A stretch of DNA of 14,637 nt. Origin: Clostridia bacterium (GTDB taxonomy: Bacteria; UBA6262; WVXT01; JAUXBS01). Both the position numbers and the translations under genes were made by a program. Below, piece by piece: positions 800 through 2,465 of this stretch (the stretch's first letter is position 1; every line of letters begins with the position of its first letter). The stretch is taken from the NCBI GenBank assembly GCA_030618495.1, contig JAUXDE010000037.1, positions 1 to 14,637 on the forward strand. Direction: 5' to 3'. The notes under the pieces are model-generated. The model worked only from the letters and a program-made list of their open reading frames with translations, was not told the origin of the DNA and ran no database searches.

Positions 800-831
800 A
801 GTGTGTTGTCTCTAACATATCTTGACATTTG
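800..831 (+). repeat. Left terminal inverted repeat of the outer element
   Basis: Pairs with 1303-1334: 24 bp perfect from the outside, then 6 of the next 8. A TTGACA hexamer at 822-827 lies in it, but no good -10 follows. Confidence 0.8.
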
Positions 832-1020
832 AAGAGCAGGATTTGAGATGGGTTCAAGGAAAGACAACGAAGGCATATCGAGAATATGGCTAGGAGGAAT
901 GACGAAGAAGCCGCTCAAAGAGAGCCCTTCCCGAAGGGCGATGATCTTTTAAACATAGTCTTCGTCGCTCGTCACTTATGTATCGCAGCGGATACACCGC
1001 GTTCCTCGCTCCTTGACTTA

Positions 1021-1054
1021 AGTGTCTTATTAAACAACCTATGTAATCATAACA
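1021..1054 (+). repeat. Terminal inverted repeat of the inner element, plus-strand copy
   Basis: Pairs with 1256-1289 over 34 bp with two mismatches (C/T at repeat position 19 and T/C at position 27). Confidence 0.8.
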
Positions 1055-1255
1055 GAGGTTTTTTTAGCCGGATTCAAAGAACGAGGAACGATGTTTGCTT
1101 GTTGCAAATAAGTGACGAGTGATGCGGAATCAGGTTAAAAGAATTTCTGCCCGAAAGGGCATGTCCGTATATGGTTGTTTGCTGCCTCACTTCGCCTTGA
1201 CGTGCATAAAGCACGCCAGTGTTGTCATTCGTTGCAACCAAACCATATCCAGACA

Positions 1256-1289
1256 TGTTATGGTTACATAAGTTGTTTAATAAGACACT
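1256..1289 (-). repeat. Terminal inverted repeat of the inner element, minus-strand copy
   Basis: Reverse complement of 1021-1054 with two mismatches. The flank just outside (TAGAAT) continues the sequence of the interrupted outer element. Confidence 0.8.
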
Positions 1290-1302
1290 AGAATACCTAT
1301 CG

Positions 1303-1334
1303 CAAATATAAAGATATGTTAGAGACAACACACT
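1303..1334 (-). repeat. Right terminal inverted repeat of the outer element
   Basis: Reverse complement of 800-831 with two mismatches. It overlaps the end of the upstream methyltransferase gene: the TAA at 1319-1321 and the four codons before it lie inside this repeat. Confidence 0.8.
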
Positions 1335-2428
1335 AGTTCAATTACCGATTCCAAATGCGGTGTCTGCGGGAACAAATCAAACAATGCCGCGCTCCTGACA
1401 CTGTACCCTTCAAATTTTTTCAGGTCCTCCCCCAGCTGTTTCGCGTTACAGGATATATAGATAATAGCCTCAGCCCTTGTGTTATTCAAATGCTTAATGG
1501 CTTTCGGGTGAATCCCCTGCCTGGAAGGGTCGGCAATAACGAAAAACCCGGCAGGCAGTTCGACTTCCCTCAACCGTTTGGCATTCAGCATTATCGCCTT
1601 AACATTTTCGGTTTTACTATTCTTAATATTCTTTTGAGCAGCTTCAATGGATAACTCATTATTATCTACTACAAGCACTTCATTAAACAGTCCTGCACTG
1701 CTAATCCCAAAAACGCCGACACCGCCATACAGGTCAACAAGGCAGGAGCCTCGCGTATCATAGGATTTAAGCAGATTATAGCAGTGCTCACTTACGATGT
1801 CGGCCATTTTACTGTTATTCTGGAAAAAACCCTGGACGTGGAACAAGAACTCCCTTCCAAAACATACTGTCTTGAGAAAACAATCGCCTTTTATGACCTC
1901 AAAGTTATCCGAAATGCTCACATCCGTATTCGCGGGAACATACGCGACAATAACATTGCCTGCTGTTGAAACGGAGGCGTATTCCCTGATTTTTTCAACC
2001 GCTTCTTCCAGTTTGCCTGAATCCTGGTTAAGAATAAACGATATTGAGGAATCCTCATTCGGGGTCCTGATAACGGCATAACGAAACACGCCCTGCTTCT
2101 TCCTTACATCAAAATAATCAACACCCTTAAAAAACTCTCTTATTTCCCTGATTAGCAGGTTTAATTCCGCCCTTGAGATCGCGCATTGCGCGATATCGAC
2201 TATTTCCCGCCATTTCCCCCTTCTCCGGAAACCAAGCCCACCCCCATGAAAAACCATATCCATCCTGTTCCTGTAGTAATACTCATTGGCGGAAAACACC
2301 TTGATATCCTCAAACTGAATTGCATCCGCAAGAACCTTCCTCTTGCTCTCCAGTTGAGCGGGATAATCAACGTCCTGCATGGTACAGCTTCCGCAATCCC
2401 CGTAGTACGGGCATAAGGGTTTGGCCAT
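1319..2428 (-). CDS. RNA uracil-C5 (m5U) methyltransferase, RlmC/RlmD/TrmA family
   Basis: SAM-dependent enzyme that makes 5-methyluridine in rRNA or tRNA. With the start chosen here (369 aa), C6-x5-C12-x2-C15 plus C82 form the iron-sulfur cluster site of the RlmC/RlmD branch. The SAM loop is VDLYGGVGVFG, the conserved ADPSRQGIH follows, the catalytic nucleophile is C327 in YISCN, and the general base is E360 in FPQTPHLES. There is no N-terminal TRAM domain, so the layout is closer to RlmC than to RlmD; the target nucleotide cannot be told from sequence. An ATG at 2452 would add eight residues, but it has no ribosome site, while the ATG at 2428 has GGAG five bases upstream. It follows cysS by 37 bp. 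The last four residues and the stop come from the terminal repeat of the adjacent mobile element. All catalytic residues precede that point. Confidence 0.92.
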   Translation of the reverse strand: MAKPLCPYYGDCGSCTMQDVDYPAQLESKRKVLADAIQFEDIKVFSANEYYYRNRMDMVFHGGGLGFRRRGKWREIVDIAQCAISRAELNLLIREIREFFKGVDYFDVRKKQGVFRYAVIRTPNEDSSISFILNQDSGKLEEAVEKIREYASVSTAGNVIVAYVPANTDVSISDNFEVIKGDCFLKTVCFGREFLFHVQGFFQNNSKMADIVSEHCYNLLKSYDTRGSCLVDLYGGVGVFGISSAGLFNEVLVVDNNELSIEAAQKNIKNSKTENVKAIMLNAKRLREVELPAGFFVIADPSRQGIHPKAIKHLNNTRAEAIIYISCNAKQLGEDLKKFEGYSVRSAALFDLFPQTPHLESVIELVCCL

Positions 2429-2433
2429 TTTTT

Positions 2434-2437
2434 CTCC
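2434..2437 (-). promoter_or_regulatory. Shine-Dalgarno selecting the ATG at 2428
   Basis: GGAG on the minus strand, within GGGAGA, is five bases before ATG 2428. The upstream in-frame ATG at 2452 is preceded only by an A/T-rich run. Confidence 0.65.
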
Positions 2438-2465
2438 CGTGATTCCAAACATTTATTTAAATGAT

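Follow-up and report, generated by a model that had tools for sequence, protein, structure and literature searches.

Nested insertion of related elements

How does a stretch of only 535 bp come to carry two sets of terminal inverted repeats (TIRs), one inside the other, and is what the two sets enclose related beyond those ends? The question arises at positions 800-1334 of a contig from a Clostridia bacterium (GCA_030618495.1, JAUXDE010000037.1), the whole analysed stretch of which (14,637 nt) we refer to as the window. A sequence-only reading had proposed that a MITE-like element inserted into an older, diverged member of its own family, and that the two may have a conserved non-coding core in addition to transposase-binding ends.

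The proposed architecture was borne out in the window. An outer inverted repeat of 32 nt (800-831 and 1303-1334) encloses an inner one of 34 nt (1021-1054 and 1256-1289), the arms of each being 94% complementary, and the lengths put forward were likewise right, with 266 bp for the outer element minus its insert and 269 bp for the inner element. The marks said to be shared on opposite strands are present as inverted blocks (945-979 with 1108-1142, and 1000-1016 with 1074-1090). Aligned with the reverse complement of the inner element, the outer element gives a local score of 36, as compared to 18 in the forward orientation and to a mean of 17.3 (sd 2.3, maximum 32, n=1000) for shuffled sequences. 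The limits of the elements require a small correction, as the true ends are probably the GTG...CAC termini that lie between TA dinucleotides at 801-1333 and 1022-1288. In the following, the outer element is referred to as family A and the inner element as family B (Table 1).

Table 1. Features of the nested elements and of the adjoining gene in the window
Feature	Position	Strand	Remarks
Outer element (family A), left portion, interrupted by B	800..1020	+	32-bp TIR; 72-97% copies elsewhere in the genome
Outer element (family A), right portion	1290..1334	+	Right TIR 1303-1334; last TA 1334-1335
Inner element (family B), opposite orientation to A	1021..1289	-	TIRs 1021-1054 and 1256-1289; further copies 87-92%
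Element A core hairpin, right-hand type	952..1023	- (purine strand)	R2 49.0 bits, R3 69.1 bits
Element B core hairpin, right-hand type	1067..1135	+ (purine strand)	R2 47.6 bits, R3 56.4 bits
Element A second core, left-hand type, inverted relative to the first	847..915	+	R3 34.9 bits, E 2.4e-7; R2 8.7 bits
Element B second core, left-hand type	1174..1242	-	R3 34.2 bits, E 3.6e-7; R2 15.0 bits
Element A central G+C hairpin GCCCTTCCCGAAGGGC, between its two cores	924..939	.	From the sequence
Element B central G+C hairpin GCCCGAAAGGGC, between its two cores	1149..1160	.	From the sequence
RlmD/TrmA-like methyltransferase gene	1319..2452	-	Final codons and stop from the right TIR of A

Both elements have the properties of MITEs: they are small (266 and 269 bp), are overlapped only by short open reading frames of 78 and 85 aa, carry TIRs of 32 and 34 nt and belong to families with dispersed copies in the same genome; for A, the ortholog of a congener shows an empty site. 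Folded as RNA, element B forms a closed TIR stem with three hairpins, a fold that lies 12.7 sd below shuffled sequences on one strand and 8.8 sd below them on the other.

The site of the outer insertion can be reconstructed from the RlmD-like gene. The window protein now ends in ...VIELVCCL*, its C-terminus having been replaced by a few TIR codons and a stop (window 1319-1345); the ortholog of the congener is uninterrupted and ends in ...VIELYPDCDSR*. When element A and one TA are removed from the window, the remaining ...GAACTATATCCGACCTGA reads ...VIELYPT*, in register with the congener ortholog. This agreement shows that A inserted at a TA where the rlmD-like gene ends and that this TA was duplicated. 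Its copy at the other end of A has since changed by one base, as expected of a 2-bp duplication in which one of the copies mutated. Duplication of a TA target, as for IS630-type elements, is indicated both by most copies of A and by the uninterrupted ortholog. Related copies, TA flanks and the uninterrupted ortholog for the outer insertion all support the view that one family member inserted into an older relative, as does a sibling copy of A without B elsewhere in the genome (contig C64, L012).

Element families in the genome

The sequence-only reading stood or fell with two observations, the occurrence of further copies and an alignment of the two elements better than that of shuffled sequence, and on both counts it held. 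In the 1.69 Mb draft genome (179 contigs), relatives of A as well as B recur. More than 20 further copies or fragments of family A were found, with 11 matches in the only congener, and a TA precedes the GTG end in most of the A copies. Family B is represented elsewhere by one full-length, one nearly complete and one partial copy (Table 1), plus end fragments. The flanks of these copies revealed two more families, C (267 bp) and D (270 bp). Nesting is frequent in this genome, with B in A (the window), C in A, B in C and D in C. It should be noted that copy numbers in the draft are underestimates, because many contigs end inside elements (C21, C41, C42, C63, C64, C107, C129, C163 and C178).

Despite their different outer sequences, families A to D have in common a core of about 55 nt, which occurs twice per element, in inverted orientation, flanking a central G+C hairpin. 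The D element (270 bp, end GTGTTGGGTAACATAAATATC) lies with its own two cores inside a C element (L048, about 2087-2355). At least seven places show C joined to A at an identical site, ATGGCT|TGTACTC (L012, L016, L019, L020, L021, L023 and L026), and two complete cases of this junction lack the right half of A, as if a chimera of an A end and a C end had spread.

The core is a hairpin with tandem G·A pairs

The purine-rich strand of the core consists of CAAGGCGCGAGGAGCGAGCATAC-loop-GTATGTAAGCGACGAGCAACGC. Watson-Crick pairs alternate in the apical stem with tandem G·A / A·G pairs, which are probably sheared. In a first alignment, for which the exact search pattern fixed the 3' side of the core and left the 5' side free, the G·A partners were kept on this unconstrained 5' side in 31-33 of 33 sequences. 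Covariation was assessed on 80 matches from a search of 386 genomes and from other loci; since the alignment is nearly gap-free in the core, bias from fitting it to the model is small there. One pair, enclosed by the two inner G·A blocks, is GC in 44 sequences, CG in 17, AT in 12 and TA in 4, with two exceptions, while the G·A pairs beside it are conserved (G·A 72/80, A·G 74/80, G·A 60/80 and A·G 63/80). Compensatory changes on both sides were seen at every one of the 12 Watson-Crick pairs tested, with 94.5% of cells paired, and the covariation score of 0.683 compares with 0.227 for shuffles and at most 0.069 for slid structures. At three loci, two C-G pairs take the place of one G·A block. 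Covarying pairs and a near-invariant G·A pattern are also seen when each locus outside this genome contributes a single row (n=35). The hairpin of the core covaries in its Watson-Crick pairs and hardly varies at its G·A pairs.

This fold is specific to one strand, because the G·A positions correspond to C·T mismatches on the complementary strand. The conserved G·U/G·T at pair 31-90 of the purine strand (57 of G·T type versus 0 A·C) points in the same direction; apart from this pair, the excess of G·T is weak (29 versus 13, or 9 versus 6 with one row per genome). A coding function of the core was ruled out, as the length of its loop varies freely.

The core, and not the ends, unites elements across phyla

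As the first covariance model (R1) included five sequences of this genome, two further models were built without them: R2 from 28 sequences, none of this genome and few of them left-hand cores, and R3 from 50 matches in other genomes, left-hand cores included. The members of R3 had been gathered with R1, so that R3 is free of this genome's sequences, although the way in which its members were retrieved was not independent of it. R2 recognised both right-hand cores of the window and gave the left-hand cores only low scores (Table 1), with 30 matches in the whole genome; R3 found all four window cores, at E values from 4.5e-17 to 3.6e-7. The suspected non-coding core apart from the ends is thus recovered in both A and B by models devoid of this genome's sequences. 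What the sequence-only reading did not foresee is that this core is a G·A-paired hairpin and that it occurs across phyla.

When one genome per species was searched with the exact core pattern, at least 119 stretches were found among the matches listed, from Acidobacteria, Elusimicrobia, Myxococcales, Saprospirales, Troglogloeales, Berkelbacteria, Vicinamibacteria and others, often with many per genome. Most of the loci that we read are palindromic elements of about 155-180 bp with one core or about 265-300 bp with two. The ends of these elements vary between lineages: across eight lineages, the mean identity of the ends is 54% (shuffled 44%) and that of the cores 76% (shuffled 51%). It is the core, and not the ends, that the elements have in common across phyla. 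The set obtained with the exact pattern is biased, and R1 was therefore run on 386 genomes spread over Bacteria, with matches at E <= 0.001 in 39 of the 386 and in 32 of the 330 genomes of good quality. R1 gave no match in four genomes of the sister family.

Searches of Rfam 15 with the window, with loci of the same genome and with canonical loci returned no relevant match at gathering or permissive thresholds, and neither the core nor the canonical element was found by these searches in phages, plasmids or viral contigs. Among openly accessible papers, the core string used gave no match, and searches for MITEs, for nesting and for hairpins with tandem G·A pairs turned up nothing similar.

Several core elements (L158, L169, L173 and L190) lie in a record titled Klebsiella pneumoniae, a metagenome-assembled genome of 5.6 Mb; plasmids of the same genus were without these elements in the present searches, and the label may be wrong. 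Three species of one genus have one listed match each, of about 109 bp (L275, L278 and L279), in which C-G pairs stand in for one G·A block. The L275 match lies directly behind a ketol-acid reductoisomerase gene. A single inherited RNA gene was considered for these three matches and ruled out, as their surroundings are not alike.

Resemblance to IS630 ends and probable mobilization

Duplication of TA and a preference for CTAG are known properties of IS630-family transposases, and their occurrence here suggests that such enzymes are the movers. No IS630 transposase was found in the genome itself, in its congener or in the sister family; from the first of these, the draft assembly may have lost the gene. 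The full-length insertion sequence with the same ends that the sequence-only reading suggested looking for did not turn up in this genome; other genomes do contain IS630 elements whose ends are similar. IS630 genes are present in 11 of 20 other core-bearing genomes. In Acidobacteria, the IS630 ends read TAGTGTCC[C/T]GT.ACAGTG.TTCG..., and an IS630 of one genome (G407, L302) differs at 1 position in 22 from the ends of core-bearing elements in another (G028). A further genome (G249, L297) contains a TA-flanked IS630 of 1165 bp with an open frame of 382 codons (NCBIfam transpos_IS630, E 6e-77) and the end GTGTAGTGTTGCATAATTAGCTTGAC, to which the family A end GTGTAGTGTTACTAACATATCTTGAC is identical at 20 of 26 positions, a value above all 20,000 shuffles. 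Judged from this resemblance to ends in other organisms, A and B are probably MITEs moved by IS630-type transposases.

None of 23 IS630 fragments or copies from core-bearing genomes has a core of its own, the sole apparent case being a neighbouring MITE. The transposase hence does not need the core. At one locus (L247, about 1379-2813), a core element directly adjoins the end of an IS630-family insertion sequence.

What the core may do

Taken together, we consider it likely that A and B belong to one MITE superfamily with IS630-type ends and TA duplications, moved in trans and united by the G·A-hairpin core. According to this explanation, both would be non-autonomous transposons, B having jumped into A, and IS630-family transposases would move the elements in trans. 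The unity of the superfamily would reside in the internal core of about 55 nt rather than in the ends, with the purine-rich strand folding into Watson-Crick pairs that alternate with tandem G·A pairs. We infer that the core is retained because it helps the element to spread, perhaps as a hairpin in single-stranded DNA that helps to pair or expose the two element ends during replication.

Whether the hairpin acts as DNA or as RNA was approached through its orientation. Among 45 element sites flanked on both sides by a gene no more than 700 bp away, the core was on the same strand as neighbouring genes in 12 cases and on the opposite strand in 15, and thus unbiased; nor was there any bias relative to GC skew. 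In the absence of such a bias, nothing that we computed separates RNA from single-stranded DNA. The lack of an orientation preference, together with the presence of one core per strand in two-core elements, suits a function for the element better than host regulation. We give a role as single-stranded DNA hairpin about an even chance and place it slightly ahead of a structured RNA.

In the RNA alternative, which we rate as a serious possibility somewhat short of even, the core would be transcribed from the elements' own or read-through promoters, be bound by a conserved cellular protein or affect RNA stability, and be retained at the RNA level. Structured RNA often contains tandem G·A pairs, and the G·U/G·T conserved at pair 31-90 likewise speaks for this alternative. 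The RNA of ERIC in Yersinia moreover alters mRNA stability in an orientation-dependent manner (PMC2229807). Against this stand the unbiased orientation relative to flanking genes, the inversion of the two cores of an element, which places one on each strand, the weakness of the G·T excess outside pair 31-90 and the lack of an Rfam match. Other readings dispense with a function of the structure. Template-switch repair of quasi-palindromes is known in bacteria, and as the elements are large palindromes, such switching during replication could repair imperfect hairpins and produce covariation without selection on structure. Repair of this kind would, however, turn G·A into Watson-Crick pairs, whereas in the 35 loci outside this genome the G·A pairs are almost invariant and their neighbours change on both sides; the low scores of the slid controls also count against a mutational origin, which we deem very unlikely.

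It is less likely still that a single MITE family recently spread between phyla and that the core is conserved merely because too little time has elapsed. Near-identical copies do occur within one genome, for example in the Acidobacterial genome of L163, L129 and L139, but the ends have diverged far more than the cores, and all four Watson-Crick combinations at one pair require much change. That unrelated ordinary MITEs became nested by accident, with common marks arising by chance, is a notion to which the frequency of nesting in this genome lends some initial appeal. We give it next to no credence, as the alignment of A with B beats all 1000 shuffles and R3, a model containing no sequence of this genome, reaches E values of 4.5e-17 and 1.8e-13. 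We thus retain the superfamily of IS630-type MITEs united by a hairpin core as the best explanation.

A MITE is usually seen as a relic: the ends, which a transposase reads, define it, and the middle is dispensable. In the present elements it is the middle that is conserved, in about one in ten of the bacterial genomes sampled, and the ends that vary. This suggests that mobile elements harbour a functional structure hitherto overlooked and absent from Rfam, and it offers a direct way of testing the role of a MITE interior.

Relation to known repeats

Like the RUP elements of Streptococcus pneumoniae, the present elements are small and non-coding, with TIRs, a TA target and, in some cases, ends resembling an IS630-family insertion sequence. 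RUP goes with IS630-Spn1; it has been described from pneumococci and is tied to the insertion sequence by its ends (PMC2229807). Compared by description only, the elements studied here differ from RUP in that their interior is common across phyla and their ends vary.

ERIC (IRU, RU-1) of enterobacteria is likewise a small TA-flanked palindrome. Its apical GAGC-NTAN...NTANG-TGA with G·A pairs and its flanks GGCAAG...GCAGCC resemble the core, and the apical stem of ERIC, flanked by G·A pairs, shows compensatory changes from copy to copy. ERIC differs in being shorter (127 bp), in having fewer blocks of G·A pairs and in the greater length of its plain stem. The two ERIC copies present in 50 kb of E. 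coli are the two best matches of R1, at 20.6 and 15.5 bits (matches at L287 286-359, and at L314 24547-24620 and 46491-46564). In the same 50 kb, R2 and R3 ranked one ERIC copy first, at an E value of only 0.08-0.16. The link between ERIC and the core elements is suggestive, a lead and not a result. We advance, tentatively and as a view more apt to fail than to hold, that one ancient nucleic-acid module, a hairpin specific to one strand in which tandem G·A pairs recur at intervals, may be what defines a bacteria-wide superfamily of mobile elements. Its structure would be retained as IS630-type ends come to differ from lineage to lineage, and ERIC would be an outlying member. Should ERIC belong, this would also offer an explanation of where these elements, a tool of strain typing for decades, came from.

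The Correia or NEMIS elements, MITEs described from Neisseria, have long TIRs between TA flanks and fold into hairpins (PMC2229807), and by description the present elements are like them in TA flanks, TIRs and hairpin folding. A different kind of parallel is offered by the GTAG and CGTC REPs, palindromic repeats of 20-40 bp with an unpaired tetranucleotide tag whose superfamilies extend over several phyla, the GTAG REPs going with RAYT (IS200-type) transposases (PMC3733652). The core elements resemble REPs as palindromic repeats that group into superfamilies across phyla; unlike REPs, they are larger and have a TA-flanked architecture with TIRs.
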